The notes beneath the pieces were generated by a model. That model was not told the DNA's origin. It ran no database searches and was given only the letters and a program-made list of their open reading frames with translations. DNA of 37,746 nucleotides from Oscillospiraceae bacterium (GTDB lineage Bacteria > Bacillota > Clostridia > Oscillospirales > Oscillospiraceae): the NCBI GenBank assembly GCA_024691985.1, contig JAILNC010000066.1, positions 1 to 37,746 on the forward strand, read 5' to 3'. The position numbers and the translations under genes were made by a program. Within the stretch, counting starts at the first letter, position 1. Each line of letters starts with the position of its first letter. Of this stretch, positions 14,270-35,115 are shown one piece after another.

Positions 14270-15328
14270 ATGGAATACGGAAGCGAATTTGACGCGCGCG
14301 CAAACGATGCGTTTGTGCGCGCTTTCCCCGGCTTTGTTGAGGACGACTGGCTGCTTTTCCGCAGCGGCCGCGACGCGATGAAGGCGCTGGCCCGCGCCGT
14401 CAGACCGCGGCCCGTGCTGCTGCCCGCGCTCTGCTGCGACTCGATGATCGTCCCCTTCGCGCTGTGCGGCTGCAGGACCGTCTTCTACCGCATGCAGCCG
14501 GATCTGCGCGCGGACGAGGCGGACGTGCTGCGCCTTGCCGAACCCGGCGCGCTGCTGGTCTACTCGCCGTACTTCGGCGTGCAGCCCTTTTCGGAGGGCT
14601 TTCTGCAGCGGCTGCGGGAGCGGGGCGTCCTGCTCGCGGAGGACCGCACGCAGGATATCGTGATCCGCCGTGAGCCCGGCGGCTTTGAACCTGACGCCGT
14701 CTTTGCCAGCCTGCGCAAGTGGGCGGCCTTGCCCGAGGGCGGGATGCTCCGCACCGCCCTGTCGGTCGAGCCCGACCCCGCCGACAGCCGCTTCGGCGAC
14801 ATGCGGCAGGCGGCGATGGAGGAGAAGACCCGCTATCTGCAGGACGGAGATCCCGCGCGCAAGCGAGACTTCCTGCGCAGGCTGCACGAGGCGGAGGCGC
14901 TGCTGGATATATCTCCCGCCGCCCCGGCCATGAGCGCCGCGTACCGGGAGCAGCTGCTGCAGCTGGATCTGTATGAGGTCGGCAGGGTCCGCCTGCGCAA
15001 TCTGCGGCGCCTTGCCGAACGGCTGGAACCGCTGCGGCAGGCGGGCAGGCTCCGCTTTCTGAGCGCGTCGCCGGAGAGGAGCGGCCTGTATCTTCCGATC
15101 CTTCTCGAGGACCGGGAGCCGGTGAAACTGGCGCTCTGGGCGCAGGGCGCGTACCACCCCGTGATCTGGCCCGAGCCGGAGCAGGCGGTCGGCGTCTGCC
15201 CGGTCAGCCCTTACGTCGTGAACCACATGCTCGCTCTGATCTGCGACCAGCGATGCAGCCTTGAGGACATGGACCGCATCGCGGATCAGCTCATCGACAT
15301 CCTTTCCCTACAGGAGAAACAGCCATGA
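14270..15328 (+). CDS. DegT/DnrJ-like PLP-fold (aminotransferase-like) protein
   Basis: The 352 residues read as a fold-type-I PLP protein: FRSGRDAMKALAR near residue 30, PALCCDSMIVPFALCG, LLVYSPYFGVQPF, a candidate pyridine-nitrogen aspartate in LLAEDRTQDI (D125) and a candidate Schiff-base lysine K150 in ASLRKWAALPEGG. The pattern resembles DegT/DnrJ/EryC1/StrS sugar aminotransferases but is divergent, so the reaction (amino-sugar formation, or a non-catalytic role) is open. GAAGGGAG precedes the ATG. A strong hairpin sits in codons 9-18. It overlaps the next gene by ATGA. Confidence 0.65.
   Translation: MEYGSEFDARANDAFVRAFPGFVEDDWLLFRSGRDAMKALARAVRPRPVLLPALCCDSMIVPFALCGCRTVFYRMQPDLRADEADVLRLAEPGALLVYSPYFGVQPFSEGFLQRLRERGVLLAEDRTQDIVIRREPGGFEPDAVFASLRKWAALPEGGMLRTALSVEPDPADSRFGDMRQAAMEEKTRYLQDGDPARKRDFLRRLHEAEALLDISPAAPAMSAAYREQLLQLDLYEVGRVRLRNLRRLAERLEPLRQAGRLRFLSASPERSGLYLPILLEDREPVKLALWAQGAYHPVIWPEPEQAVGVCPVSPYVVNHMLALICDQRCSLEDMDRIADQLIDILSLQEKQP
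14294..14322 (+). other. Near-perfect hairpin inside the 5' coding region
   Basis: A 13-bp arm GCGCGCGCAAACG (14294-14306) pairs with CGTTTGTGCGCGC (14310-14322) with one G-U pair and a 3-nt loop. It lies 24 nt after the start codon of the PLP-fold gene. Such a stable structure near a start codon could slow or gate translation; that role is inference. Confidence 0.75.
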
Positions 15329-15888
15329 ACGTCGACCCTGTCCTGCACCGCGGACGGCCCGCGGACGAGCGCATCGAAACGGAGGAGCGCTGCTATGCCT
15401 TCCTCGACGGCCTCGGCCTTTCCTATGAGCGCGCCGACCACGCGCATGCCGACACCATCGAGGCCTGCCACGCGGTGGAGCGCGTGCTCGGCTGTGAGAT
15501 CTGCAAGAACCTGCTCTTGACCAACCGGCAGATGACGGAGCTGTATCTGCTGCTGATGCCGGGGGAGAAGCCCTTCAAAACCCGCCTCCTGTCCAGACAG
15601 ATCGGCACGGCGCGCCTGTCCTTCGCGACGCCGGAGCAGATGCGTGCCTCGCTTGGCGTCACGCCCGGCTCGGTCAGCGTCCTGGGGCTGATGAACGACA
15701 CGGGGAAGCGCGTACACCTTCTGATCGACCGCGATCTGCTTACCGGGGAGTATGTCGGGGTGCATCCCTGCATCAACACTTCCACGCTCAGGCTCTCCAC
15801 CGCCGATCTGCTGGGCAGGGTTCTGCCCGCCCTCGGCATCACGCCGCGCTTTGTCGAGCTCCCCTGGGATCCAGACACGGAAACATAA
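15325..15888 (+). CDS. ProX/YbaK-type aminoacyl-tRNA deacylase
   Basis: This 187-residue single-domain protein resembles the YbaK/ProX (PrdX) editing family, which hydrolyses mischarged tRNA such as Ala-tRNA(Pro). Family features are CKNLLLTNRQ with the key lysine (K61), the LYLLLMPGEKPFKTRLL strand-loop, RLSFATPEQM, TPGSVSVLGLMND and a C-terminal CINTSTLRLST segment. Its start overlaps the PLP-fold gene stop as ATGA. The stop TAA at 15886-15888 lies inside the first unit of the 14-nt tandem repeat, so the repeat abuts or has entered the 3' end of the gene. Confidence 0.85.
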   Translation: MNVDPVLHRGRPADERIETEERCYAFLDGLGLSYERADHAHADTIEACHAVERVLGCEICKNLLLTNRQMTELYLLLMPGEKPFKTRLLSRQIGTARLSFATPEQMRASLGVTPGSVSVLGLMNDTGKRVHLLIDRDLLTGEYVGVHPCINTSTLRLSTADLLGRVLPALGITPRFVELPWDPDTET

Positions 15889-16004
15889 TATTATTTACGT
15901 AATATAATATACATAAGTTAATTAACATATATCAGTAAACGGAATATAATTAACATAGTATTATTAACGTAAGAATATAAACATAATATAGTTTACATAA
16001 CGAA
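15879..16004 (+). repeat. Nine-copy 14-nt phased AT-rich tandem repeat (locus 1)
   Basis: Nine consecutive degenerate 14-nt units, consensus ATTAACATAATATA, run from the end of the deacylase gene to the terminator stem. The conserved core C of AC(A/G)TA falls at 15884, 15898, 15912, 15926, 15940, 15954, 15968, 15982 and 15996, a spacing of exactly 14 in every case. Unit 5 has a variant core (ACGGA). The last unit, GTTTACATAACGAA, differs from the others and is shared with locus 2. The composition is extremely AT-rich within a GC-rich chromosome. There are no spacers, so it is not a CRISPR. Confidence 0.9.
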
Positions 16005-16039
16005 AGGACTCCCGGGACGAACAGTCCCGGGAGTCCTTT
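16003..16039. terminator. Bidirectional terminator hairpin
   Basis: A perfect 16-bp stem (AAAGGACTCCCGGGAC with its complement, 16003-16018 and 16024-16039) encloses a 5-nt loop. A/T triplets at the base give short U-tracts in both directions. It separates the plus-strand deacylase from the convergent AEC transporter. Confidence 0.85.
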
Positions 16040-16053
16040 GACAATCGGCGCTT

Positions 16054-16956
16054 TTAACTGAAATACAGCGCCGCCCAGAGGGGGATGCTCGCGAGGGAGA
16101 GCGCCGTCGAGAGAAAGATCAGCTTCGCGGACAGGGCGCGGTTGCCGCCGTAGATCGTGCAGAGCATGGTGGAATTCGTCGCGGCGGGCATGGCAGCCAT
16201 GAGGATCAGCACGCCCTTGAGCACCGGGTCGATCGAAAGCGGCTTGAGCAGCAGGGCGGTCAGCGCCGCGATGCCGAACAGGCGCAGCAGCACGAAGGGG
16301 ACGGCGCGCCACTCGCTGAAGATCTCGCGGATCGGGACGCCGGCCAGTACCGAGCCGATCACCAGCATCGCGCAGGGGGAGGTCGCCTGCCCGAGGAAGG
16401 CGCAGCCGGAGAGCAGCACCGCCGGCAGCTTAACGCGCAGCATGTAGAGGATCGCGGCGGCGAGGCCAGCAAGAAAGGCGGGATTGAGTATCTTTTTGAA
16501 GGAGAACTTTCCGGCGAGCAGGAAAATGCCCAGCGAGAAACAGATCAGGTTGTAGGGGATGTTCAGCAGCGAGGCATAGAAGGAGGCCGAGCCGCCGAGC
16601 ACCGCCGCGCAGACGGGGATGCCGATATAGGTCACGTTGCCGCACATGAGCTCGAAGAGGTAAACGCCCCGGTCCTCGGCGCTCACGCGCAGCAGGGGCA
16701 CGACGATCAGCGCGACCAGCGCGCTGAGCAGGAACATCCCGGCCGAAAGCCCGACCGCGAGCGGGACGGCGCGCGCCTCCACGCCGACGTCGGTGCGCAA
16801 TATGGCGCTGAACAGATAAAAGGGGAGGATGATCTTGACCACGATATTCGACAGCGCGGAGGTGGACTCCTCGCTCAGCACGCCGAGCTTGCGGCAGACG
16901 AAGCCCGCGAGGATCGCGAGAAAGATGGTCAAAATCTGGGAGAGCGCGGCAGACAT
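16054..16956 (-). CDS. AEC (auxin efflux carrier) family transporter
   Basis: A protein of about 300 residues with some ten hydrophobic helices in two five-helix halves. It has AEC-type features: an N-terminal FLAILAGFVCRKLGVL helix, NIVVKIILPFYLFSAI, GNVTYIGIPVCAAVLG, and a C-terminal AAMPAATNSTMLC segment. AEC members export malate, other organic anions or unknown metabolites; the substrate cannot be predicted. GAAGGAG on the minus strand lies 1-2 nt before an ATG at 16962 but about 7 nt before the ATG at 16956, so the latter is preferred. It follows the EEP-family gene by 24 nt on the same strand. Confidence 0.88.
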   Translation of the reverse strand: MSAALSQILTIFLAILAGFVCRKLGVLSEESTSALSNIVVKIILPFYLFSAILRTDVGVEARAVPLAVGLSAGMFLLSALVALIVVPLLRVSAEDRGVYLFELMCGNVTYIGIPVCAAVLGGSASFYASLLNIPYNLICFSLGIFLLAGKFSFKKILNPAFLAGLAAAILYMLRVKLPAVLLSGCAFLGQATSPCAMLVIGSVLAGVPIREIFSEWRAVPFVLLRLFGIAALTALLLKPLSIDPVLKGVLILMAAMPAATNSTMLCTIYGGNRALSAKLIFLSTALSLASIPLWAALYFS

Positions 16957-18133: not shown

Positions 18134-18162
18134 TTGCCAAGCACAACATCTTGTACTATAAT
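18134..18162 (+). promoter_or_regulatory. Sigma-A-type promoter for glyA
   Basis: TTGCCA (18134-18139), exactly 17 nt, then consensus TATAAT (18157-18162). The 5' leader would be only about 30 nt, too short for a riboswitch. GGGAGGAAG precedes the glyA start. Confidence 0.88.
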
Positions 18163-18200
18163 GAGAAACCAAGACTAGAGAAAACAGGGAGGAAGCCCCT

Positions 18201-19442
18201 ATGAGTTACGAATATCTCAAGCGCCAGGACCCGGAGGTCTACGCATCCATGATGCACGAGCTCCGTCGCCAGCGCGATCATATCGAACTGATCGCTTCGG
18301 AGAACTTTGTCTCTCCCGCCGTCATGGAGGCCATGGGCAGCCATCTGACGAATAAATATGCCGAGGGTTATCCCGGCGCGCGCTACTACGGCGGCTGCCA
18401 GTACGTGGACGAGGTCGAGAATCTCGCCATCGAGCGCGCCAAGAAGCTCTTCGGCGCCGAGCATGCCAACGTACAGCCCCACTCCGGCTCGCAGGCCAAC
18501 GTCGCCGTCTATCTCGCCCTTTTAAAGCCGGGCGACACCATCCTCGGCATGGACCTCAGCCACGGCGGCCATCTGACCCACGGCTCCAAGGCCTCCATCT
18601 CCGGCAAGTACTTCAACGCCTGCTTCTACGGCGTCGACCCGGAGACCGAGTGCATCGACTATGACAGCGTTCAGCAGCGGGCCGAGGAGGTCAAGCCGAA
18701 GATCCTGATCGCCGGCGGCAGCGCCTATCCCCGCTTCATCGACTTTAAGCGCATGCGTGAGATCGCGGACTCCGTCGGCGCCTACCTGATGGTCGACATG
18801 GCGCACATCGCGGGCCTCGTCGCCGCGGGCGAGCATCCGAGTCCCGTGCCGTACGCCCACGTCGTGACCACCACCACGCACAAGACCCTGCGCGGCCCGC
18901 GCGGGGCGCTGATCCTCTGCAAGGAGGAGCTGGCCAAGAAGATCAACTCCGGCGTCTTCCCCGGCTCGCAGGGCGGTCCGCTCATGCACATCATCGCGGC
19001 CAAGGCCGTCTGCTTCGGCGAGGATCTGGGCGTGGATTTCAAGGCCTACCAGCACCAGATCGTCCTCAACGCCGCCGCCCTCGCGGACGAGCTGAAGGCC
19101 AGCGGCGTCCGCCTCGTCTCCGGCGGGACAGACAACCACCTGATCCTGGCCGACGTGTACAGCCGCGGCAAGACCGGGGCCGAGGTGCAGGAGCTCCTGG
19201 ATCTGGCGAACATCACCGCCAACAAGAACACCATCCCCTTCGATACCCTGTCCGTGAAGGTGACCTCCGGCATGCGCTTCGGCTCGCCCGCCGTCACCAC
19301 CCGCGGCATGAAGGAGCCCGAGATGCGCCAGATCGGCCGTATGATCGCCCGCCTGATCGAGGAGGGCGAGTCCGCCGTCGACGAGGTGAAGGCCGAGGCC
19401 GTCGCCCTCTGTGAGGCCTTTCCCCTCTACCCGGAGATGTAA
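18201..19442 (+). CDS. glyA: Serine hydroxymethyltransferase
   Basis: GlyA is the PLP enzyme that converts serine and tetrahydrofolate to glycine and 5,10-methylene-THF. Visible signatures include [57 protein letters not shown], the PLP lysine K228 in [15 protein letters not shown], and GSQGGPLMH. The 413 residues match the bacterial enzyme. It has its own near-consensus promoter. Its codons are strongly GC-biased, as expected of a highly expressed gene here. A lower-GC acyltransferase gene follows within 25 nt with no terminator between. Confidence 0.98.
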
Positions 19443-19466: not shown

Positions 19467-20540
19467 ATGGAAACGAAAAAGAACCGATGGGCGAACCTTG
19501 AGCTGCTTCGCATGCTGGTGATGTTCTATGTCGTGTTGGCGCACCTGCTGGGGAATGCAGAGCATGTGGAACGGATCGGTTTCGGGGGAGCGGGCTACTT
19601 CGCTCATTGGTTTGTCAGCGGGCTCTGCCATGCCGCGAATCCCTGCTTTATCCTGATCAGCGCGTTCTTTATGGTCGAGCTCCCGTTTCGTGCCTCGCGG
19701 CTTCTGCGCCTGTGGCTGATGGTTCTGTTCTATACCTTGTTCGGAACGCTGGCAGCACACTTTGTTTTTCACACACCGCTCGACCTGAATGCGCTGCTGT
19801 ATGCATTCTTCCCGATCACAAGAAGTGCTTACTGGTTTACTACGCAGTATTTTCTGCTGCTCGCGATCAGCCCTTTTCTGAACAAGTTCATACACAGCCT
19901 TTCCAAAAAGGAACTCATATGGGTGATCGCGGTTCTCGGTGTTTTGTTCAGCATTATCCCCACCTTCCTGTACTGGTCACAGTCTTATTTCAGCAAAGGC
20001 TTCGACCTGCACTGGCTTGTTCTGGTCTACTTTTTGGGCGCCTATATCCGGCTCTACGGTCTGGATGTGCCCAAGGGAGCTCTCTGGTATCTCGTTTCCT
20101 GCGTGTTTCTGTCGCTCAGCAGGCTGGTTATCGGGACGCTCGCCTTCCGCTTTACCGGCTCCCCCAAGGGGGCGGGCCTGTTCTTCCTCCCGACCTCACC
20201 CGTCTTCATATTTATGGGCGTCTGCCTGTTTTCCGCATTTCAGAAGCTGAAAGTGACAAAAGGGACAAAGCTCATCAATAAAATATCCTCCTGCATGATC
20301 GGCGTCTATCTGCTTCACATGCAGAAGTATCTGGACCTGAGGAACCGCGTGGGGATGGCGGAAACACAAAACGCCTGGACGGGGATCCTGTGGGCGCTGC
20401 TGATGGGCGCGGTCCTGTACCTTCTGGGCATCGGGGTAGAGGCGGCGCGAAAACAGTTTGCCAGGCTGTACCGTGAGAAGGCGCTGTGCCGCTGGCTCGA
20501 TGAAAAGACCGCAAAGCTCCTGCCGGCAGAGCAAATGTGA
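19467..20540 (+). CDS. Acyltransferase-3 family membrane protein (second copy, lower GC)
   Basis: The 357-residue polytopic protein has the acyltransferase-3 N terminus NLELLRMLVMFYVVLAHL (R15, H26) followed by CHAANPCFILISAFFMV and about ten hydrophobic helices. It probably O-acetylates a surface glycan; the substrate is unknown. It is not closely similar to the family member at 6199-7254. Sampled stretches have about 43-55 percent GC, against over 70 percent in adjacent glyA, suggesting acquisition by transfer. No Shine-Dalgarno is seen before ATG 19467, and a TTG at 19455 is an alternative start. It may be expressed by read-through from glyA. The stop is directly followed by the 14-nt repeat. 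Confidence 0.8.
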   Translation: METKKNRWANLELLRMLVMFYVVLAHLLGNAEHVERIGFGGAGYFAHWFVSGLCHAANPCFILISAFFMVELPFRASRLLRLWLMVLFYTLFGTLAAHFVFHTPLDLNALLYAFFPITRSAYWFTTQYFLLLAISPFLNKFIHSLSKKELIWVIAVLGVLFSIIPTFLYWSQSYFSKGFDLHWLVLVYFLGAYIRLYGLDVPKGALWYLVSCVFLSLSRLVIGTLAFRFTGSPKGAGLFFLPTSPVFIFMGVCLFSAFQKLKVTKGTKLINKISSCMIGVYLLHMQKYLDLRNRVGMAETQNAWTGILWALLMGAVLYLLGIGVEAARKQFARLYREKALCRWLDEKTAKLLPAEQM

Positions 20541-20581
20541 TTAACATAGTTCAGTAAACATAAAATAGTTGACATAACAGA
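20540..20581 (+). repeat. Three-copy 14-nt phased tandem repeat (locus 2)
   Basis: Units ATTAACATAGTTCA, GTAAACATAAAATA and GTTGACATAACAGA have core C positions at 20545, 20559 and 20573, again exactly 14 nt apart. They match units 4, 5 and 9 of locus 1 in sequence and order. The array shares the last base of the TGA stop of the acyltransferase gene and ends 8 nt before a terminator stem. Confidence 0.85.
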
Positions 20582-20589
20582 AGGGCATA

Positions 20590-20621
20590 AAACCGCCTGT
20601 ACCGAAGGGTACAGGCGGTTT
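20590..20621. terminator. Bidirectional terminator hairpin
   Basis: A perfect 14-bp stem AAACCGCCTGTACC / GGTACAGGCGGTTT closes a GAAG loop between the convergent acyltransferase and threonine ammonia-lyase genes. U-tracts are short (three to four) on both strands, so efficiency may be moderate. Confidence 0.82.
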
Positions 20622-24391: not shown

Positions 24392-25612
24392 ATGTCGATC
24401 CGGCACTGGGTATGGCTGTCGAGCGTGACCAACGCGAGCCCGAAGGCCCGGGCCGCGCTGTGCGCGTACTACGGCGGCGCGGAGCAGGCGTTCTTCGCCC
24501 CGTCCGGGGACTTTAAGAACGTCCCGGGCCTCACGGAGAACGAGGCCGCTTTGTTCGAAGCGCGCGATCTCACCGCGGCGGACCGCATCCTCGCCGACTG
24601 CGAGCGGGAGGGGATCGATGTCGTGACGATGCAGGACTCGCGCTATCCGCTCAGACTGAAAAACATCTTCGCCCCGCCGGTCGTGCTGTATGTCAAGGGC
24701 CGCCTGCCGGACGTGGACAGCGTCCCCTCCGTGGCTGTCATCGGCACGCGCAGGGCCACGCCCTACGGCCTCAAGATGGGGCGGGACGTCGCCTTTGAGA
24801 TCGTCAAATGCGGCGGCATTGTCGTCTCCGGCCTGACCGAGGGCGTGGACCGCGCCGCGGCGCGGGGCTGCCTGCTCGCGGGCGGGACCTGTATCGGCGT
24901 GCTCGGCACCTGCCACGGCACGGAGGGCGATCTGAGCCGCGACGTCGCTGTCTCCGGCGCGCTGGTCAGCGAATACCCGCCGGGCACACCGCCGCTGCGC
25001 CGCTTCTTCCGGGAGCGCAACCGCGTCTCCTCCGGCCTGTCGCACGCGGTCTGTGTGGTCGAGGCCCCGGAGACGAGCGGGAGTCTCCTCTTTGCACGCG
25101 AGGCCGTGGAGCAGGGGCGGGAGCTCTTCGCCGTGCCCGGCAACGCGGACGCGGTAAACAGCGCCGGGACCAACGCGCTCATCAAGCAGGGCGCACGCCC
25201 CGCGGTCTGCGGCTGGGACGTGATGGAGGATTTCGCCGCGGTCTATCCCGAGGCCGTGCACCGGCCCGGGGCCATCGTCCTGCCGCCGGAGGAAGCAGCG
25301 GAGAGCGCGGCGCCGCCCGCCGAAAAAACGCCGCCCGCGCCGTCCCGGCCCCCGGAATCGACAAAAAAAGAGATTGACAAGGAAAAAAGCGCGGGCTATA
25401 TTGACTGGAAAGAGCAGCTTGCGGGGCTGAACGCCGAGCAGCTGCAGATCATTTCGGCCATCGGCCGGGGAGAGACGCACATCGACGACATCATCGAGAC
25501 CACGAATCTGTCGGCGGCCAAGGTGCTCTCCCAGCTTACGATCCTGGAGATCAAGGGCTATGTCCGCCGCGCGGCGGGCAGGCGCGTGGTACTGAACGTA
25601 ACGAAAAAGTGA
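24392..25612 (+). CDS. dprA: DNA-processing protein DprA/Smf
   Basis: DprA binds incoming single-stranded DNA and loads RecA during transformation. The Rossmann-like DprA domain is visible from SVAVIGTRRATPYG through VVSGLTEGVDRAAARG and GALVSEYPPGTPP to FRERNRVSSGLSHAVCVVEA and SGSLLFAREAVEQGRELFAVPGN. After a Pro/Glu/Ala linker, the C-terminal ~70 residues (LNAEQLQIISAIGRG ... GYVRRAAGRRVVLNV) form a DprA-type winged helix. The length is 406 residues. The segment following GVLGTCHG departs from the usual YPxxN form. dprA-topA-trmFO is a conserved Firmicutes order; no other competence gene is visible here. Confidence 0.94.
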   Translation: MSIRHWVWLSSVTNASPKARAALCAYYGGAEQAFFAPSGDFKNVPGLTENEAALFEARDLTAADRILADCEREGIDVVTMQDSRYPLRLKNIFAPPVVLYVKGRLPDVDSVPSVAVIGTRRATPYGLKMGRDVAFEIVKCGGIVVSGLTEGVDRAAARGCLLAGGTCIGVLGTCHGTEGDLSRDVAVSGALVSEYPPGTPPLRRFFRERNRVSSGLSHAVCVVEAPETSGSLLFAREAVEQGRELFAVPGNADAVNSAGTNALIKQGARPAVCGWDVMEDFAAVYPEAVHRPGAIVLPPEEAAESAAPPAEKTPPAPSRPPESTKKEIDKEKSAGYIDWKEQLAGLNAEQLQIISAIGRGETHIDDIIETTNLSAAKVLSQLTILEIKGYVRRAAGRRVVLNVTKK

Positions 25613-25621
25613 GGAAAGAAC

Positions 25622-27886
25622 ATGGCAAGAGCGAAGGATCTCGTCATCGTGGAGTCGCCGGCCAAGGCGAAGACGATCGAGAAATATCTGGGCAGCGGCT
25701 ACAAGGTGACCGCGTCCATGGGACATTTGAGAGATCTGCCCAAGAGCAAGATGGGCGTGGATATAGAGCACGGCTTTGAGCCGCAGTACATCCCCGTGCG
25801 GGACAAGAAGGAGCTCATCAACGAGCTGAAGAAGGAAGCGAAGGACGCGTCGACCGTCTACCTCGCGACCGACCCCGACCGCGAGGGCGAGGCGATCTCC
25901 TGGCATCTCAAGGAGCTTTTGGAGCTGGACGACAGCAAGGCCAAGCGCGTGACCTTCAATGAGATCACCAAGCGCGTCGTCACCGAGAGCATCCGGAATC
26001 CCCGCAGCATCGACCAGGATCTGGTCGACGCCCAGCAGGCGCGCCGCATCCTCGACCGCATCGTCGGCTACGAGCTGTCGCCCCTGCTCTGGCGCAAGGT
26101 CAAAAAGGGCCTGAGCGCCGGGCGCGTCCAGTCCGTCGCCACGCGCATGGTCTCGGACCGTGAGGACGAGATCACGAGCTTCGTGCCCCAGGAGTATTGG
26201 CTGCTCGACGCGCGCCTCAACTGCGGCGAGGCGGATTCGAGCTTCACCGCCCGCTTCCACGGCCGCGGCGAGAAGAAGCAGGAGCTGCACAGCGAGCAGG
26301 AGGTCGACAAGGTAATCAAGGCTGTCGAGGGCGCGGACTTCACGGTTTCTTCCGTCAAGCGCGCCGACAAGCAGAAGGCCCCGGCCCCTCCCTTCATCAC
26401 CTCCACATTGCAGCAGGAGGCCTCGCGCCGCCTCGGCATGACGCCGCGGCGCACCATGTCCATTGCCCAGCAGCTCTATGAGGGCGTCGAGATCACCGGC
26501 CACGGCAGCATCGGTCTGATCACCTACATGCGCACCGACTCGCTCAGACTGTCGGAGGAGGCGCTCTCCGCCGCCCGCGCCTATATCACCGAGCATTACG
26601 GCGACGCCTATTATCCCGGCAAGCCGCGGCGCTACAAGACCAAGGCGGGCGCGCAGGACGCGCACGAGGCCATCCGGCCCACGGACATCGCCCTCTCGCC
26701 CGAGGTCGTGCGCAAGGATCTGACGCAGGAGCAGTACCGGCTCTACCGTCTGATCTGGGGGCGCTTCACCGCCTGCCAGATGGCCAACGCCGTCTACGAC
26801 AACGTGGCCGTCGAGGTCGAGGCCGCGGGCTACAGCTTCCGCGCCAATTATTCGGAGCTGAAATTCAAGGGCTACACCGCAGTGTATGAGGAGGCAAAGG
26901 ACGAGGAGTCGAACGAGCTCGCCAATCCGCTGCCCAGTCTGACGGAGGGTCAGCGCCTGTTTCTGGAAAAGCTCCTGCCCGAGCAGCAGTTCACCCAGCC
27001 GCCCGCCCGCTATACCGAGGCTACGCTCATCCGCGCCATGGAGGAAAAGGGCATCGGCCGCCCCTCCACCTACGCACCGACGATCTCGGCCATCACCGCA
27101 CGGGATTACGTCATCAAGGAGGGCAAGTACCTCAAGCCCACGCCGCTGGGCCAGGTGGTCACGGGGCTGATGAAGGAGCATTTCGCCGACATCGTCGACC
27201 TCAAGTTCACCAACCAGATGGAGTCTGAGCTGGACGAGATCGAGCACGGCAAGGCCGAATGGCGCAGCGTGCTCTCCGGCTTCTACGGCAGCTTCAGCAA
27301 GGAGCTAAAAGAGGCCGAGCAGGCCATGGACGGCGTGCGCCTCAAGGTGCCGGACGTGCTCAGCGACGAGTTCTGCGAGGTCTGCGGCCGCCAGATGGTG
27401 ATCAAGAAGGGGCGCTTCGGCCATTTTCTGGCCTGCCCCGGCTTCCCCGAATGTACCTTTACCAAGCCCATCGTGATCGAGATGCCCGGCAAGTGCCCCA
27501 AGTGCGGCGGCCGCATCCTCAAGCGCACCTCGAAGAAGGGCTATGTGTTCTACGCCTGCGAGCGCGGTACCGACTGCGGCTTCATCACCTGGGACGTGCC
27601 GACCAAGGACTTCTGCCCCGCCTGCGGCAAGACGCTGTTCAAGCACAGCGGCCGCGGCCCGCTGAAATCCTTCTGCATCAACGAGGCCTGCCCGAACTTT
27701 GTCCCCGAGGACAAGCGGGTATACAAGAGGAAGACGCCGGAGGAGAAGGCGGCCGCCGAGGCAAAGCGTGCCGGGAAGAAGACCGCCGGGACAAAGAAGG
27801 CCGCCGGGAAGTCCGCCGCGGCGAAGAGCGGCGCAAAGAGCACGGCGAAGAAGGCCCCGGCCAAAAAGAAGGCCGCCGAGGAATAA
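25622..27886 (+). CDS. topA: DNA topoisomerase I
   Basis: TopA relaxes negative supercoils by a type IA mechanism. The TOPRIM domain opens with LVIVESPAKAKTIEKYLG and has TDPDREGEAISWHL; the active-site tyrosine is Y302 in GLITYMRTDS. The C terminus carries three Cys4-type zinc modules starting near residue 585 (CEVCG...C, CPKCGG...C, CPACGK...C) and ends in a Lys/Ala-rich tail of about 50 residues. The 754 residues are slightly longer than B. subtilis TopA because of this tail. It starts 10 nt after dprA and ends 4 nt before trmFO. Confidence 0.98.
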   Translation: MARAKDLVIVESPAKAKTIEKYLGSGYKVTASMGHLRDLPKSKMGVDIEHGFEPQYIPVRDKKELINELKKEAKDASTVYLATDPDREGEAISWHLKELLELDDSKAKRVTFNEITKRVVTESIRNPRSIDQDLVDAQQARRILDRIVGYELSPLLWRKVKKGLSAGRVQSVATRMVSDREDEITSFVPQEYWLLDARLNCGEADSSFTARFHGRGEKKQELHSEQEVDKVIKAVEGADFTVSSVKRADKQKAPAPPFITSTLQQEASRRLGMTPRRTMSIAQQLYEGVEITGHGSIGLITYMRTDSLRLSEEALSAARAYITEHYGDAYYPGKPRRYKTKAGAQDAHEAIRPTDIALSPEVVRKDLTQEQYRLYRLIWGRFTACQMANAVYDNVAVEVEAAGYSFRANYSELKFKGYTAVYEEAKDEESNELANPLPSLTEGQRLFLEKLLPEQQFTQPPARYTEATLIRAMEEKGIGRPSTYAPTISAITARDYVIKEGKYLKPTPLGQVVTGLMKEHFADIVDLKFTNQMESELDEIEHGKAEWRSVLSGFYGSFSKELKEAEQAMDGVRLKVPDVLSDEFCEVCGRQMVIKKGRFGHFLACPGFPECTFTKPIVIEMPGKCPKCGGRILKRTSKKGYVFYACERGTDCGFITWDVPTKDFCPACGKTLFKHSGRGPLKSFCINEACPNFVPEDKRVYKRKTPEEKAAAEAKRAGKKTAGTKKAAGKSAAAKSGAKSTAKKAPAKKKAAEE

Positions 27887-27889
27887 ACC

Positions 27890-29212
27890 ATGGCGGAGAT
27901 CACCGTACTGGGCGCGGGCCTCGCGGGGAGCGAGTGCGCATGGCAGCTTGCCCTGCGCGGCATGCATGTGCGTCTCGTGGAGATGAAGCCCGCGAAGATG
28001 ACGCCCGCCCACGTCTCTCCCTGGTTTGGGGAGCTGGTCTGCTCCAACTCTCTGCGCAGCGACGAGCTGACGAACGCCGTCGGCCTTTTGAAGGCCGAGA
28101 TGCGCGCTCTGGGCTCGCTCATTCTGGACAGCGCCGACCAGAACCGCGTCGCCGCGGGCGGCGCGCTGGCGGTGGATCGCGAGGGCTTTGCCCGCTGCAT
28201 CACCGAAAAGCTCTGCGCCCACCCGAATATCGAGATCGTCGAGGCGGAGGCGACCGAGCTCCCGGAGGGAGAGGTCGTCGTCGCCACGGGCCCGCTCTCC
28301 AGCGACGCCATCGCCGAAAGGATCGCCGAACTCTGCCCGGGCTCCCTGCACTTTTACGACGCCGTCGCGCCCATCGTCACGCTCGAGAGCGTGGATATGG
28401 AAAGCGCCTTCTTCGCCTCCCGCTACAATAAGGGGACGGCGGATTATGTAAACTGCCCGATGGACCGCGAGGAATACGACGCCTTCGTGCGCGAGCTCGC
28501 CGCGGCGAAAGAGGCCCCGGTCCACGGCTTTGACGACGGCGGCGTGTTCGAGGGCTGCATGCCGGTGGAGGTCATGGCCCGCCGCGGCGCGGACACCCTG
28601 CGCTACGGGCCGCTCAAGCCGGTCGGTCTCGTCGATCCGCGTACCGGCCGCGCCAACTACGCGGTGGTCCAGCTCCGGCGCGACAATGCGGACGGGACGC
28701 TGTACAATCTGGTCGGCTTCCAGACGCATCTGACCTGGGGCGAGCAGAAGCGCGTGTTCTCCATGATCCCGGCGCTGAAGAACGCGGAGTTCGTACGCTA
28801 CGGCGTCATGCACCGCAACACCTATCTGAACAGCCCGCAGCTGCTGGACCGGTATTACAGACTGAAAAGCGATCCGCGCATCCGCTTTGCCGGCCAGATG
28901 ACCGGGGTGGAGGGCTATGTGGAGTCCGCGGCCTCCGGCATGCTGACCGGGATCGAGGCGGCGGCGGAGCTTCTGGGGCTCGCGCACGCCGACTTCCCGC
29001 AGGAGACCGCCATCGGGGCGCTGGCCCTCTACGTCTCCGGCGGCAGCGTCGGCGACTTCCAGCCGATGAACATCAACTTCGGCATCATCACGCCGCTGGA
29101 CCGTCGGGTCAAGGGAAAGAGAAACAAGAACGCCGAGATCTCTCAGCGTTCCCTCGCCATCATAGAACGTATGAAGGAGAAGGAGGTTTTCCGCTGTGCG
29201 AATCATCATTGA
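27890..29212 (+). CDS. trmFO: Methylene-THF--tRNA (uracil-5-)-methyltransferase (FADH2-dependent)
   Basis: TrmFO makes m5U54 in the tRNA T-loop using methylene-tetrahydrofolate and FADH2. ITVLGAGLAGSECAWQLA is the FAD dinucleotide-binding motif, followed by MKPAKMTPAH. The two mechanistic cysteines are present: C51 in ELVCSNSLRSDE and C223 in VFEGCMPVEVMARRG. The C terminus shows GQMTGVEGYVESAASG and NFGIITPL. At 440 residues it has the family length. ATG at 27890 is within 4 nt of the topA stop. Its 3' end overlaps plsX by 17 nt. Confidence 0.97.
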   Translation: MAEITVLGAGLAGSECAWQLALRGMHVRLVEMKPAKMTPAHVSPWFGELVCSNSLRSDELTNAVGLLKAEMRALGSLILDSADQNRVAAGGALAVDREGFARCITEKLCAHPNIEIVEAEATELPEGEVVVATGPLSSDAIAERIAELCPGSLHFYDAVAPIVTLESVDMESAFFASRYNKGTADYVNCPMDREEYDAFVRELAAAKEAPVHGFDDGGVFEGCMPVEVMARRGADTLRYGPLKPVGLVDPRTGRANYAVVQLRRDNADGTLYNLVGFQTHLTWGEQKRVFSMIPALKNAEFVRYGVMHRNTYLNSPQLLDRYYRLKSDPRIRFAGQMTGVEGYVESAASGMLTGIEAAAELLGLAHADFPQETAIGALALYVSGGSVGDFQPMNINFGIITPLDRRVKGKRNKNAEISQRSLAIIERMKEKEVFRCANHH

Positions 29213-30221
29213 CGCCATGGGCGGCGACAACGCCCCCGGCGAGATCGTAAAGGGTGCCGTCAGGGCACACAGAGAGCTCGGTGTGAGCGTCACGCTCGTC
29301 GGCCGGGCGGAGGAGGTGCGCGCCTGCCTTGAGCGGGAGGGCGCCGCCGAAGAGGCCGACGCGATTGAGATCGTGGACGCGCGCGAGGTCGTGACCATGG
29401 AGGACGATCCCAGCACGGCCACACGCCGCAAGAAGGATTCCTCCATGACCGTGGCGTTGAACCTGCTGCGCGACGGGAAGGGCGACGCGGTGGTCTCCGC
29501 CGGCTCCACCGGCGCGCTGCTGACCGGCGCGACGCTGATCGTCAAGCGCATCCGCGGCATCCGCCGCGCGGCCATGGCCCCGGTCCTGCCCGCGGGCGAG
29601 CACGGCATCATGCTCATCGACTGCGGCGCGAATGTGGAGTGCACCGCGGAGTATCTGCTGCAGTTCGCCTACATGGGCAGCTTCTACGCCAAAAAGATGA
29701 TGGGCTGCGACAATCCCCGCGTCGGCCTTCTGAACGTCGGCACCGAGGACAACAAGGGCGGCGATCTGCAGCATGCGGCCTTTGCCCTGCTCAGGCAGGC
29801 CCATGAGGAGGGGCGCATCAACTTTGTCGGCAACGTCGAGGGGACGGGCGTCTTCGCCGGCGCGGCCGACGTGGTGGTCACCGACGGCTTCACGGGCAAC
29901 GTGCTCCTGAAGGCCACCGAGGGGACCATCAAGTTCCTGATGAATTCGCTCAAGGGCGTGTTCTACAAGAGCACGAAGAACAAGCTCGCCGCGGCGGTTT
30001 TGAAGAACGACCTCAAAGAGATGAAGAAGTCCATGGACGTCAACGAGGTCGGCGGCACCGCCTTCGTGGGCATCTCCAGGCCCGTCATCAAGGCGCACGG
30101 CGCCTCGGACGCGGCCTGCATCTTCTCGGCCGTCCGCCAGGCCATCGCCTTTGTGGACGCGGGCGTCATCGGGGACATCGAGCGCAACATCGAATACATG
30201 AAGCTGAAAACGGAGAGCTGA
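29196..30221 (+). CDS. plsX: Phosphate acyltransferase PlsX
   Basis: PlsX makes acyl-phosphate from acyl-ACP for phospholipid synthesis. The GTG start at 29196 gives MRIIIDAMGGDNAPGEIV, the canonical N terminus, with AGGAGG at 29181-29186. Other family segments are STGALLTGAT, MLIDCGANVEC, LLNVGTEDNKGG, and VVVTDGFTGNVLLKATEG. It has 341 residues. It overlaps trmFO upstream and its TGA overlaps the ATG of rnc. An acpP gene commonly lies between plsX and rnc; here there is none. Confidence 0.96.
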   Translation: MRIIIDAMGGDNAPGEIVKGAVRAHRELGVSVTLVGRAEEVRACLEREGAAEEADAIEIVDAREVVTMEDDPSTATRRKKDSSMTVALNLLRDGKGDAVVSAGSTGALLTGATLIVKRIRGIRRAAMAPVLPAGEHGIMLIDCGANVECTAEYLLQFAYMGSFYAKKMMGCDNPRVGLLNVGTEDNKGGDLQHAAFALLRQAHEEGRINFVGNVEGTGVFAGAADVVVTDGFTGNVLLKATEGTIKFLMNSLKGVFYKSTKNKLAAAVLKNDLKEMKKSMDVNEVGGTAFVGISRPVIKAHGASDAACIFSAVRQAIAFVDAGVIGDIERNIEYMKLKTES

Positions 30222-30898
30222 TGGACAGGCTGGAACAAAAGATCGGATACCGCTTTCAAAACCGCAGCCTTCTGGAGACGGCCCTGACGCACAGCTCCTA
30301 TGCCAACGAAAAGCACGCTGAACAGGCGCAGAGCTACGAGCGCCTCGAGTTCCTGGGCGACTCCGTCCTCGGCCTCGCGGCGGCGGAGTTTCTCTACGCG
30401 CACGAGCCCGCCCTGCCTGAGGGGCAGATGACCCGTCTGCGCGCCGAGCTCGTATGCGAGGCGAGCCTGCACAGGGCGGCGCTCTCCCTCTCCCTGGGCG
30501 ACTATATGCGCCTCGGCAGGGGCGAGGAGCACACCGGCGGCAGGACCCGCCCCTCCATCCTGGCCGACATGGTCGAGGCCGTCATCGCCGCGATCTATCT
30601 CGACGCCGGCATGGACGAGGCCAGACGCTTCGTTTTGGATAAGATCCTCAAGGACGCCGAGATCAGCGACAGCCACCGCGGCGCGGACTACAAGACCCGC
30701 CTGCAGGAAGTGGTGCAGCGCCGCAGCGACCAGCACATCAGCTATGTGCTGGCGGACGAATCCGGCCCCGACCACGACAAGCGCTTCACCTTTGAGGTGC
30801 GCATCAACGGCGTCGCGGTCGGCTCCGGCAGCGGCCGTACGAAGAAGGAGGCCGAGCAGATGGCCGCGTGCAGAGCGCTGGAGAGCCTCTCTCAATGA
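30221..30898 (+). CDS. rnc: Ribonuclease III
   Basis: RNase III cleaves double-stranded RNA, including rRNA precursors. The catalytic signature is SYERLEFLGDSVLG (E40, E43, D47), with the second acidic pair in ILADMVEAVIAAIYLDAG. A C-terminal double-stranded RNA-binding domain spans about residues 153-222 (DYKTRLQEVVQR ... GSGRTKKEAEQMAACRAL). The 225 residues are typical. Its ATG overlaps the plsX stop, and its stop overlaps the radical SAM gene start as ATGA. Confidence 0.97.
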   Translation: MDRLEQKIGYRFQNRSLLETALTHSSYANEKHAEQAQSYERLEFLGDSVLGLAAAEFLYAHEPALPEGQMTRLRAELVCEASLHRAALSLSLGDYMRLGRGEEHTGGRTRPSILADMVEAVIAAIYLDAGMDEARRFVLDKILKDAEISDSHRGADYKTRLQEVVQRRSDQHISYVLADESGPDHDKRFTFEVRINGVAVGSGSGRTKKEAEQMAACRALESLSQ

Positions 30899-31905
30899 GC
30901 GCCCGCACTGACGTCATCCCGGTCTTTGTGCCGCATCTCGGCTGCCCGCACGCCTGCGTGTTCTGCAACCAGAACCGCATCTCCGGACAGGCGCGCCCCG
31001 CCTCCGCGGAGGACGTGCGCCGCGCCGTCGCCAATGCCGCCTTTCTCCCGCGGGGGGAAAAGCGGCAGCTGGCATTTTATGGGGGCAGCTTCACGGCCAT
31101 ACCGATCCCCGAGCAGGAGGCGCTGCTGGGCGCGGCAAGGGAGGCGATGGAGCGCGGCGAGATCGACGCGATCCGCCTCTCCACCCGCCCCGACGCCATC
31201 GACGAAGAAGTGCTCGCACGCCTGCGCGCCTACGGTGTGGAGACCGTCGAGCTCGGCGCGCAGTCTATGGACGACGAGGTGCTGCGCCTTTCCGGCCGCG
31301 GCCACACGGCGGCGGACGTGGAGCGCGCCTCCGGCCTGCTCCACTCGGCTGGCTTTCGCCTGGTGCTGCAGATGATGACCGGCCTGCCCGGCGACACGGA
31401 GGAAAAGGACCTCGAGACCGCCCGGCGCTTGATCGCCCTCAACCCAGACGCCGTGCGCATTTACCCCACGGTGATCGTGAGGGACACCGCGCTCTGCCGC
31501 CTGTTTGAGCGCGGGGAATACAGGGAACACACGGTGGAGGACGCGGTGGAGATCTGCGCAAAGCTCCTGCCGCTGTTTGAAAAGGCGGGCGTGCCCGTCA
31601 TCCGCCTCGGCCTCAATCCGACCGAGGAGCTTACCAATGGGGCGGCCGTCGGCGGGGCCTATCACCCCGCGCTGGGCGAGCTGGTCAAGAGCCGCATCCT
31701 GCGCCAGAAAGCCGCGGAGCTGCTGCAAAACGTGGAGCCCGGCAGCCGGGTCGAGCTCTCGGTGGGACGGGGAAAGCTCTCCCAGATGATCGGCCAGCAC
31801 CGCGAAAATATCGCCTGGCTCTGCCGCCGATACGGCCTGAGCGCTCTCAAAATCTCTGAAAACCCGGAGCAGACAGAGGAAATTCTCTTGTTTTCCGTTG
31901 ATTAA
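30895..31905 (+). CDS. Elp3-like radical SAM protein
   Basis: The 336-residue protein has a radical SAM cluster motif CPHACVFCNQ near the N terminus, the YGGSFT segment after it, and LGAQSMDDEVLRLSGRGHTAADV, as in Elp3/HemN-like enzymes. No acetyltransferase domain is present, so it is not full Elp3. The short C-terminal region (VELSVGRGKLSQMIGQHRENIAWL) may bind RNA. Location between rnc and smc is common in Clostridia, but the substrate is not known to me. ATG 30895 is chosen because it overlaps the rnc stop as ATGA; an upstream ATG lies inside rnc. Confidence 0.87.
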   Translation: MSARTDVIPVFVPHLGCPHACVFCNQNRISGQARPASAEDVRRAVANAAFLPRGEKRQLAFYGGSFTAIPIPEQEALLGAAREAMERGEIDAIRLSTRPDAIDEEVLARLRAYGVETVELGAQSMDDEVLRLSGRGHTAADVERASGLLHSAGFRLVLQMMTGLPGDTEEKDLETARRLIALNPDAVRIYPTVIVRDTALCRLFERGEYREHTVEDAVEICAKLLPLFEKAGVPVIRLGLNPTEELTNGAAVGGAYHPALGELVKSRILRQKAAELLQNVEPGSRVELSVGRGKLSQMIGQHRENIAWLCRRYGLSALKISENPEQTEEILLFSVD

Positions 31906-31926
31906 TTACCAAAACCGGGGTATAAT
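31898..31926 (+). promoter_or_regulatory. Sigma-A-type promoter for smc-ftsY
   Basis: TTGATT (31898-31903), a 17-nt spacer and consensus TATAAT (31921-31926). The -35 overlaps the 3' end of the radical SAM gene. GGGG at 31953-31956 is the ribosome binding site for the TTG start of smc. Confidence 0.8.
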
Positions 31927-31965
31927 AAATCGTTTTTTGCAAGAATAATCGTAGGGGTTACTGCT

Positions 31966-34900
31966 TTGTATTTAAAAGCGCTTGAGATCCAGGGCTTCAA
32001 GTCCTTTCCGGACAAGACGCGCCTGAGCTTTGAAAAGGATATCACCGCGATCGTCGGGCCGAACGGCTCGGGCAAGTCGAACATCGCCGACGCCATCCTC
32101 TGGGTCATGGGCGAGCAGCGCTCCAAGGCCCTGCGCGGCGGCAAGATGGAGGACGTCATTTTCGGCGGGACCGAAAAACGCGGGGCCTTGGGTTACGCCC
32201 AGGTCTCCCTGATCCTCGACAACTCCGCCCGGATCTTCGACTCCGACAGCAGCGAGATCATGCTCACCCGCCGCTACTACCGCAGCGGGGAGAGCGAATA
32301 TTATGTAAACCGAGAAGCCGTGCGCCTCAAGGACCTCAACGCCCTGCTGATGGACACGGGCCTCGGCCGGGACGGCTATTCCATCATCGGCCAGGGCCGC
32401 ATCGCCGAGATCGTCTCCGCCAGGAGCACCGACCGGCGCGAGGTCTTCGAGGAGGCCGCGGGCATCTCGCGCTTCCGCTACCGCAAGGAGGAGGCCGAGC
32501 GCAAGCTCGAGAGGACCGAGGAGAACCTGCTGCGCATCAGCGACAAGATTGAGGAGCTGGAGCTGCAGGTCGGCCCCCTGAAGGAGCAGGCCGCGGTCGC
32601 GAAGCGGTATCTTAAGCTGCGCGACGAGCTCAAGACGGCGGAGATCTCCCTCTGGATGGCGACGCTGGACAAGCTGCACAGCCAGAGCGAGAGCATTCGC
32701 GTCGAATACGCCCAGGTCACGGCGGAGCTGGAGACGGCGAAGGAGGGCCTGCAGGCGCTCTACGCCTCGTCCGAAGGCATCAGCGAGCGCATGCACCGCA
32801 AGGACATCGAGACCGACGAGGCCCGCGGCCGTCTGGGCGCGGCCGAGGCCGAGATCGCCCGCTGCGAGGCGGACGCGGCGGTCCTGCGCGCCGACTGCAA
32901 GAGCACCGAGGACGCGAAGGCGCGCATGCTGGACGACATCTCCGAGCAGGAAAACCGCGTGCGCGAGGTGCAGAAAAACATCGACGAGGCGAAAAAGCGT
33001 ACGGACGAGATCGACCGCGAGCTCGCCGCCTGCCGTGAGGAGAGCGGACGCTGCCGGAACGTGCTCGACGGCTGCCGCATGAAGCTGTCGAGCCGCGAGC
33101 AGATCCTGAACGGGCTGAGCGAGAAGGCGAACCGCCTCGCGGTGGACGGACGCACCATGGACGCGCGCATCCGCATGCTCGAGGATATGGAGCGCGAGTT
33201 CGAGGGCTACTCCAAGGCGGTGCGCAGCGTGATGCGCGAGAGCGCGCACGGCGTGCTGAAGGGCATCCACGCCCCGGTCGCAAACCTCCTGCGCACGGAC
33301 GAGGAGACCGCCCTCGCCATTGAGACGGCGCTGGGCGCCGCCTCCCAGAACATCGTCACCGATACGATGAACGACGGCCGCGCGGCCATCGAATATCTCA
33401 AGCGCACGGACGGCGGCCGCGCCACCTTCCTCGCGCTCGACACGATACGCGGCTGCGTGATGAAGGACGCGCCGGAGCGCGACCCCGGCTTCGTGGGGAT
33501 CGCCTCGGAGCTGGTGCAGTTTGAAGAAAAGTACCGCGGCATCGTGGAAAACCTGCTGGGCAGGACGGTCATCGCCGAGGCCCTGCCGGACGCGATCCGC
33601 ATGTCGAAAAACAGCGGCAGCCGCCTGCGCATCGTGACGCTCGACGGGCAGCTCATAAGCCCCGGCGGCGCCATGACCGGCGGCAGCAGCGCGAAGGGCA
33701 GCGGCATCCTCTCCCGCGCCAACGAGCTGGAAAAGCTCAAAAAGAAGCGCGGCTCGGCGCAGGCGGAGGAAAAGCTCTGCGCTCAGGAGCTGGAGCGCGC
33801 GAAGGCGAATCTCGCCCAGGTGCGCTACACGCTCGAGCGCGCACAGGAGGAAGAGGCGGAGCTGCGCAGCAAAAGCGCCTCGCTCGAAGCCGAGCGCCGG
33901 GCGGGGGAGAACAGCAGCGCGCAGCTGCGGCTGCTGCTGGAGAGCCTGTCGGGCGACAGCCGCGAGCGCCAGCGGGTCGTGGAGGCCTTCGACGAAAGGC
34001 TCGAGAGCTTCCGGAATCGGCTGGCGGAGAAGGAAAAAGAGCTTGCGCGCTGCCGGGCCGGAGCTGACGCCATCCGCGGCGAGATCGGGCAGATCAGCAG
34101 GTCCAGGCTCGAGCTCGAGGGCAAGCGGACCCGCGCCGAGAAGGAGGCCCAGACGCGCAACGCCGAGATTTTGGAGCTCGAGCGCCGTTCGGCCCGCATC
34201 GAGCAGAAGAAGCTCGCCGCCGATCTGGAGGAAAAGCAGATCCTCGACAGATTGTGGGAGGGCTACGAGCTCAGCCACAGCGCGGCGCAGGCGCTGCGCA
34301 GGCCCATCGAGAGCATGGCGAAGGCCAACCGCGCCGTTTCAGAGCTGCGCAGCCAGATCGGCGCCCTCGGCACGCCGAACCTCGGCGCCATCGACGAATA
34401 CGAGCGCGTCAGCACGCGCTATGAATTCCTGAGCGGCCAGCGCAGCGACGTGGACAAGGCGAAGGCGGAGCTGATCACTATCATCCGCGATATCACCGCC
34501 CAGATGGAGACCGTCTTCATCGAGCGCTTCAACCAGATCAGCGAGTGCTTCCGCGAGACTTTCCTGGAGCTCTTCGGCGGCGGCAAGGCGGCGCTGAAGC
34601 TGGAGGACGAAAACGACGTGCTGGGCTGCGGCATCGACATCCGCGTGCAGCCGCCCGGCAAGGCTCTGTCGACCATCAGCCTGCTCTCCGGCGGGGAGAT
34701 GGCCTTCGTCGCCATCGCGCTCTACTTCGCGATCCTGAAGGTGCGGCCCACGCCCTTCTGCGTCATGGACGAGATCGAGGCCGCATTGGACGAGGTAAAC
34801 GTCAAGCGCTTCGCGGACTACCTGCGGCGCATGGCGGACAGGACGCAGTTTCTGGTCATCACCCACCGGCGCGGCACCATGGAGGAGGCCGATATGCTCT

Positions 34901-34983
34901 ACGGTGTGACCATGCAGGAAAAGGGCGTATCCACCGTGATCGAGCTCGACCTTGAACAGGCGCAGAAGACGATAGAAGAATGA
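31966..34983 (+). CDS. smc: Chromosome segregation protein SMC (short-armed)
   Basis: SMC is the ATPase of prokaryotic condensin. The N-terminal head has LKALEIQGFKSF and Walker A GPNGSGKSN (about residues 31-39). The hinge spans about 414-583, ending LISPGGAMTGGSS. The C-terminal head begins near GTPNLGAIDEYERV (about 801) and holds signature LLSGGEMAF (about 906) and Walker B FCVMDEIEAALDEVN. Start is TTG at 31966 with GGGG upstream. At 1005 residues it is about 180 shorter than B. subtilis SMC (about 1186). Heads and hinge look complete, so both coiled-coil arms (about 250 and 220 residues) are shortened. The signature motif reads GGEM rather than GGER. Confidence 0.96.
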   Translation: MYLKALEIQGFKSFPDKTRLSFEKDITAIVGPNGSGKSNIADAILWVMGEQRSKALRGGKMEDVIFGGTEKRGALGYAQVSLILDNSARIFDSDSSEIMLTRRYYRSGESEYYVNREAVRLKDLNALLMDTGLGRDGYSIIGQGRIAEIVSARSTDRREVFEEAAGISRFRYRKEEAERKLERTEENLLRISDKIEELELQVGPLKEQAAVAKRYLKLRDELKTAEISLWMATLDKLHSQSESIRVEYAQVTAELETAKEGLQALYASSEGISERMHRKDIETDEARGRLGAAEAEIARCEADAAVLRADCKSTEDAKARMLDDISEQENRVREVQKNIDEAKKRTDEIDRELAACREESGRCRNVLDGCRMKLSSREQILNGLSEKANRLAVDGRTMDARIRMLEDMEREFEGYSKAVRSVMRESAHGVLKGIHAPVANLLRTDEETALAIETALGAASQNIVTDTMNDGRAAIEYLKRTDGGRATFLALDTIRGCVMKDAPERDPGFVGIASELVQFEEKYRGIVENLLGRTVIAEALPDAIRMSKNSGSRLRIVTLDGQLISPGGAMTGGSSAKGSGILSRANELEKLKKKRGSAQAEEKLCAQELERAKANLAQVRYTLERAQEEEAELRSKSASLEAERRAGENSSAQLRLLLESLSGDSRERQRVVEAFDERLESFRNRLAEKEKELARCRAGADAIRGEIGQISRSRLELEGKRTRAEKEAQTRNAEILELERRSARIEQKKLAADLEEKQILDRLWEGYELSHSAAQALRRPIESMAKANRAVSELRSQIGALGTPNLGAIDEYERVSTRYEFLSGQRSDVDKAKAELITIIRDITAQMETVFIERFNQISECFRETFLELFGGGKAALKLEDENDVLGCGIDIRVQPPGKALSTISLLSGGEMAFVAIALYFAILKVRPTPFCVMDEIEAALDEVNVKRFADYLRRMADRTQFLVITHRRGTMEEADMLYGVTMQEKGVSTVIELDLEQAQKTIEE

Positions 34984-35093
34984 GAGTGAAGAGTGGAGTG
35001 TGAAGAGTGAAATTGTTGTGCGCCTGCGGCGCGTTATAATTATCCGCGGAGCGGATACCACAACTTCACTCTCCACTCTCCAAACTCCACACT
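34984..35093. repeat. Interspersed inverted-repeat element between smc and ftsY
   Basis: About 110 bp starts right after the smc stop. Imperfect inverted arms (GAGTGAAGAGTGGAGTG... on the left, TTCACTCTCCACTCTCC on the right) of about 35 bp enclose two small perfect hairpins, CGCC-TGC-GGCG (35021-35031) and TATCCGC-GGA-GCGGATA (35041-35057). The design is that of a small non-coding dispersed element (MITE/REP-like). I recall similar GTGAAGAGTGAA-type elements in Oscillospiraceae genomes, but have not searched. Confidence 0.78.
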
Positions 35094-35115
35094 GAAAAAG
35101 GGATGAGGTTGAACA

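Follow-up and report, generated by a model that had tools for sequence, protein, structure and literature searches.

The recombinase XerD does its work late in the chromosome cycle. A second job, the removal of the chromosome-condensing complex SMC near the terminus, has been reported for it, and Karaboja et al. are said to have described in 2021 the XDS of Bacillus subtilis, to which XerD binds and which direct the unloading of SMC. In the available passages of five papers, XerD bound at its own sites unloads SMC in the terminus region of B. subtilis, and several such sites may be needed for unloading (PMC10945525, PMC8669397, PMC12322038, PMC8357415, PMC13342612).

We studied a window of 37,746 nucleotides, the whole stretch of DNA analyzed, from an Oscillospiraceae bacterium (assembly GCA_024691985.1, contig JAILNC010000066.1). 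It holds a tandem array, one of a genuine family of phased, XerD-arm-like arrays that spans the genus. With XDS, known here from the available passages of citing papers, the family shares an XerD-arm-like motif outside dif in a genome with XerD, SMC, and ParB; it differs in that its arrays run to as many as 15 units in strict tandem at 14 nt and occur at many loci, and the citing literature on XDS, in the passages available, mentions no tandem XDS array. With dif it shares the XerD arm and a distance of 14 between the inner halves (8 + 6). However, the layout of dif, inverted 11-bp arms around a 6-bp center, is absent from the arrays, which are direct repeats of one arm without an XerC arm and without an inverted pair. 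The constant-length tandem repeats of Bacillus (Subirana and Messeguer 2021, PMC8161180) likewise combine a fixed unit length with variable sequence, and a nucleoid-protein role has been proposed for them, but in the available portion of that paper their units measure 52 or 20 to 21 nt and carry no link to XerD. The matS/MatP system of MukBEF unloading in E. coli (PMC10945525, PMC8669397) resembles the proposed role in offering many sites to one condensin-displacing protein; in the excerpts at hand the protein and the motif are others, and matS sites are scattered rather than tandem. Searches limited to open-licence papers turned up no report of tandem XerD arrays, of XerD autoregulation, or of repeats in Limivicinus. 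Judging from sequence comparison, we think it probable that the arrays are rows of XerD-binding half-sites, most likely with the job of XDS sites, at which XerD unloads SMC.

Phased arrays in the window and across genomes

Nine ACRTAA-like cores start at positions 15883, 15897, 15911, 15925, 15939, 15953, 15967, 15981, and 15995, a pitch of exactly 14 nt; the core at 15939 deviates (ACGGAA). On the minus strand the unit reads TTAYGTWAAYW+NNN, and the first three of the nine units are TTATGTAAACTATA, TTATGTTTATATTC, and TTACGTTAATAATA. At period 14, the minus-strand core TTAYGTWA was matched at 7.22 of 8 positions on average; the other periods between 8 and 26 reached 5.33 at best. None of 3,000 dinucleotide shuffles reached 7.22 at periods 10 to 18 on either strand (best shuffle, 6.0), confirming the nine units in exact 14-nt phase that a sequence-only reading of the window had reported. 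TRF gave period 14 and 8.4 copies with matches of only 66%; the phase is strict and the letters drift. Two further statements of that reading hold: the array is AT-rich in GC-rich surroundings (17% GC versus 64% in the window), and it both supplies the stop codon of the preceding gene and reaches a hairpin, its last core stopping two bases short of it (Table 1). A second array, of three units, was absent from that reading's finding. An Rfam search returned five matches, all far under gathering scores, and hence no RNA family. Elsewhere in the window (24392 to 36021, plus strand), dprA, topA, trmFO, a plsX-like gene, smc, and ftsY stand together, and exact XerD-arm 11-mers sit inside trmFO and smc.

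Table 1. Positions of the arrays, adjoining genes, hairpins, and isolated arm-like sites in the window
Feature	Positions	Strand	Remarks
Gene with aminoacyl-tRNA editing domain (PF04073)	15325..15888	+	YbaK/EbsC-like; far below TIGR00011 cut-off
Array of nine XerD-arm-like units in tandem, pitch 14 nt	15875..16000	-	Reads TTATGTAAACT+ATA ... on the minus strand
TAA stop of the deacylase-like gene	15886..15888	+	Supplied by the array's last unit (minus-strand order), the first core on the plus strand
Bidirectional, terminator-like hairpin adjoining the nine-unit array	16003..16039		Self-match on the opposite strand
Convergent gene, auxin-efflux-carrier-type membrane transport protein (PF03547)	16054..16956	-	
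Second array, three units	20536..20577	-	Flanked by the TGA stop of gene 19467-20540 and a hairpin
Terminator-like hairpin after the second array	20591..20620		Coordinates hand-counted from the sequence
Isolated XerD-arm-like 11-mer within trmFO	28444..28454	+	TTATGTAAACT; may be chance
smc gene	31966..34983	+	TIGR02168, 951 bits, above cut-off
Isolated XerD-arm-like 11-mer within smc	32301..32311	+	TTATGTAAACC; may be chance

Further phased copies, whose absence the sequence-only reading had named as part of its refutation, are present in the source genome and in its genus. The source genome (2.39 Mb in 139 contigs, 79% complete) gave 108 matches to a two-unit pattern with up to three mismatches versus 54 to the reversed pattern. 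Three-unit arrays at the same mismatch limit were found in 28 of 37 genus genomes, the source included, and in 1 of 23 genomes from the order's other families, with the reversed pattern matching in 4 of the 60; many of the 37 are incomplete, and nine of them had no three-unit array. At up to two mismatches, the two-unit pattern did not clearly exceed its reversed control in G069, G064, and G065.

An exact three-unit scan of GTDB genomes (84,980 species) yielded 77 stretches, and those beyond Oscillospiraceae and Eubacteriales MAGs looked, by eye, like exact satellites, AT-rich chance matches, or instances of a TTACGTWACG motif. This related but different motif forms three-unit 14-nt arrays in Bacteroidota and one Ignavibacteriales genome (L123, L134, L143, L145, L147, L149, L155, L166), some apparently just 5' of a start codon, and looks like a regulator operator. 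Similar three-unit 14-nt arrays stand directly before an apparent start codon in Woesearchaeota contigs L121 and L151. A phage version of the drifting arrays was sought and rejected, the viral scan giving four contigs with near-exact satellites instead. These IMG/VR contigs (L414 to L417; GC, 0.39 to 0.41) have a 14-nt satellite, TTATGTAAATSATT, common to all four in 3 to 4 copies; it may be a site of phage attachment or replication.

Of 102 genus genomes, 94 yielded the gene that precedes the window array, and junctions were compared at its 30 best loci. Phased sites stand directly at the gene end in nine of these, the source included: one locus each has 9, 6, 5, or 4 units, and the remaining five have 2. 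By our own count, locus L338 has seven units about 280 bases further downstream, and 20 junctions had no phased sites within the stretch scanned. At several junctions the first site provides the TAA stop, as in the window. Across the orthologous junctions, letters and the number of units change but the 14-nt phase holds, which supports the selection on spacing that the sequence-only reading had put forward. Three to six units also lie directly 3' of recG, at five loci with a full-length RecG match and one with a partial match; a seventh recG-type locus with such units (L217) was called without a family search.

The unit motif and the sites at xerD

A unit profile, with the consensus TTATGTWAAYWAWA, was built from 373 units in 86 nonredundant arrays (at least 3 units each) in fetched sequence of the genus and named relatives. 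Positions 1 to 8 are biased by the search core TTAYGTWA, and positions 9 to 14 are unbiased. Positions 9 to 11 (A in 77%; C or T in 87%; T in 42% or A in 31%) lie outside the search core and continue the XerD arm of dif. In the available parts of the sources, this arm reads TTATGTAAACT for B. subtilis and TTATGTTAAAT for E. coli (PMC3025954), and the 36 dif XerD arms that we transcribed follow TTATG(T/G)(A/T/C)A(A/C)(A/C/G)(T/C/G) (PMC3025954, PMC2731167). The first 11 bases of the unit resemble this arm; the sequence-only reading had known no named element with such a unit. The match, made with dif arms from other organisms, is good but not perfect: C at position 4 occurs in 17% of array units and T at position 10 in 54%, each versus 0 of the 36 arms transcribed from those partly available sources. 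Palindrome selection in the core (TTACGTAA) was considered and rejected, C4 being uncoupled from A7 (p 1.0).

The dif of the genus was sought and not found. Firmicutes-type dif patterns with up to two mismatches gave no recurring site in 41 genomes. A looser arm-6-arm pattern mostly returned the arrays again and, among the matches listed, ten candidates that included coding sequence. One arm-6-arm dif-like sequence (G002:C106:17810-17833) lies 300 bases from a tyrosine recombinase match (18150-18917); with this XerD-like recombinase beside it, it may be the attachment site of an integrated element.

XerD itself (TIGR02225, E up to 1e-30) was found in 19 of 21 genus genomes, in 16 over the cut-off. 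The protein of the source genome scored 326.5 bits, just under the cut-off of 329.6; its alignment to XerD of E. coli (1a0p, E 6.6e-54) runs along its length and takes in the regions of the catalytic motifs. SMC, within the window, and ParB are encoded in the same genome. The genus set comprised 17 xerD loci, three further, weaker recombinase loci having been left out. In all 17, GTAATATATTG stands upstream, either close to xerD or ahead of another gene at a distance of about 610 to 635 bases. In 15 loci it is followed after 11 to 17 bases by a TTATGT(A/T/C)A site, and an inverted site precedes it by about 50 to 64 bases in 14, whereas a reversed-motif control on the same stretches gave 0 and 0. 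The gene before xerD looked like spoIIM, an assignment that was dropped when Pfam gave it no family.

Across the order, 33 of 59 genomes had an XerD match at 1e-80, and 29 loci were examined besides the source's own. The strict motif occurred 48 times in their upstream 1.5 kb versus 7 for the reversed motif, and twice in the gene plus downstream sequence. At least one strict upstream site was present in 21 of the 29 loci; eight had none, one of which (L367) stops at a contig end. Site pairs exactly 14 apart were found in 8 of the 29, and under a score model 14 was the commonest direct spacing (10 pairs; next, 5). The commonest site at order-wide xerD loci is TTATGTAAAC followed by C or T, that is, the XerD arm of Firmicutes dif. 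In several L061-type loci (for example L355, L356, L359, and L361), a third, weaker core, NCATAA, follows the paired sites at +28, another 14 bases on; it resembles XerC arms by eye and is possibly an XerC-type site, a lead only.

Among six genomes from five other genera of the family, four have a single zero-mismatch tandem pair genome-wide, 764 to 822 bases upstream of xerD, and a fifth has a pair with two mismatches 823 bases upstream of xerD; G125 had no XerD match at that cut and no such pair. Two-mismatch pairs away from xerD in these genomes equal the reversed-control level. Within the order, the motif seems to have a long history as an operator of the xerD promoter. Together, the conserved xerD-promoter sites and the likeness to the dif arm point to XerD as the likeliest binder of the arrays, an assignment in which we have good confidence.

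Chromosome position and a proposed mechanism

In G069 (11 contigs, about 2.03 Mb), pairs with at most one mismatch fall into 7 places after hand-merging within 10 kb. Six of the 7 are on contigs C4, C7, C9, and C10, which make up 21% of the length (post hoc P 4e-4). GC skew, sampled over 787 of about 2,032 kb, places the origin on contig C1 and resolved no terminus. The sole place on this 545-kb contig lies at its far end, and no pair with at most one mismatch occurs from 22 kb to the origin-side end. The pair pattern was seen 12 times and its reverse once in fetched stretches of G069, which were chosen partly around arrays; genome-wide, with up to two mismatches, pattern and control were alike (28 versus 27). 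A polarity toward replication, apparent by eye in G069, failed on 81 arrays: 48 of the 81 oppose the skew (p 0.12), showing no bias, and there was none relative to gene direction (26 of 52).

We propose that the window array consists of nine XerD half-sites, each the XerD arm of dif without the XerC arm, all in one orientation at a 14-bp pitch. XerD would occupy each 11-bp site, and neighbors would probably bind cooperatively. Since the pitch equals the distance between the inner dif arm halves (8 plus the 6-bp center), XerD neighbors would sit at a spacing that the family uses, though in direct orientation. No partner arm stands in inverted orientation, so recombination is not expected at these sites, which would serve as docking points. 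The most likely job of the bound XerD would be to unload SMC complexes, as at the XDS of Bacillus subtilis, although that the job concerns SMC at all is a tentative suggestion. The old xerD-promoter operator of the order would have become a dispersed, multi-unit array family in this genus. A bolder version has an ancient autoregulatory XerD operator turned into chromosome-wide poly-XerD arrays, with overlapping dif-spaced half-sites and cooperative XerD filaments that make strong, tunable SMC-unloading or domain-boundary elements, unit number setting their strength; this version we regard as rather doubtful.

Placement, unit relatedness, and rival explanations

Read with a simple purpose-made gene caller, 82 of the 86 arrays lie between called genes, three at a stretch end, and one inside a called frame. 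Junctions are convergent for 26 arrays and divergent for 9, and between co-directional genes 26 arrays are sense and 21 antisense. Many adjoin hairpins, several end right before a ribosome-binding-site-like sequence of the following gene, and some of those between co-directional genes stand inside apparent operons immediately ahead of a start codon. Because both strands are used equally between co-directional genes, the element is not bound to the transcript strand, and the 3' UTR RNA sites that the sequence-only reading had entertained are weakened. Its other proposal, a DNA-binding array at a convergent-gene junction, fares well as to DNA binding, with the phase kept while letters change; convergent junctions, though common, are not the rule. 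Placement bears also on whether XerD-bound arrays might be local roadblocks or insulators against transcription or replication read-through, not acting on SMC. The intergenic location, the hairpins, and the convergent junctions suit such a function, but the sense and antisense arrays between co-directional genes do not, and a roadblock just before a start codon inside an apparent operon would cut the operon; we judge this quite unlikely. It is also unlikely, in our estimate, that a different DNA-binding protein, a lineage regulator or nucleoid protein, binds the arrays and controls xerD, with a coincidental or convergent likeness to the dif arm. Operators of any regulator could account for the xerD-promoter sites, the units depart from dif arms at positions 4 and 10, and the arrays that end before ribosome-binding-site-like sequences would agree with regulation. 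Yet the commonest order-wide site is the Firmicutes dif XerD arm and is located at xerD itself, and the genes adjoining arrays, where named, are of unrelated kinds (tRNA editing, recG, transporter, acyltransferase) and form no coherent regulon.

The remaining alternative, a neutral minisatellite that gains and loses units through slippage, we consider very improbable. Over the 86 arrays, adjacent units were no more alike than nonadjacent ones (0.445 versus 0.452), and a repeated 14-mer was present in only one array. The units are therefore not recent copies of each other, which tells against both the recent unit-wise duplication and the variable minisatellite raised by the sequence-only reading, despite the varying unit number at the orthologous junction. 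Same-array units are somewhat more alike than different-array units (0.450 versus 0.393; 0 of 500 permutations), as slippage would have it; shared local composition or old duplications can explain this residual likeness. Against neutrality stand the core positions, 82 to 99% conserved (a figure biased by the core search) versus drifting spacers, and the recurrence of the motif at xerD across families. Our reading is of old arrays maintained by selection on core and pitch, and XerD-binding half-sites are what we take them most probably to be.

The xerD-promoter sites suggest autoregulation by XerD throughout an order of Clostridia, and the arrays, whose motif is shared with the xerD site, suggest a role in chromosome organization in one genus of gut bacteria. 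If they are XerD arrays, related species would hold a natural graded series, 2 to 15 sites at matched positions, in which the effect of site number and spacing on SMC unloading would be directly testable.
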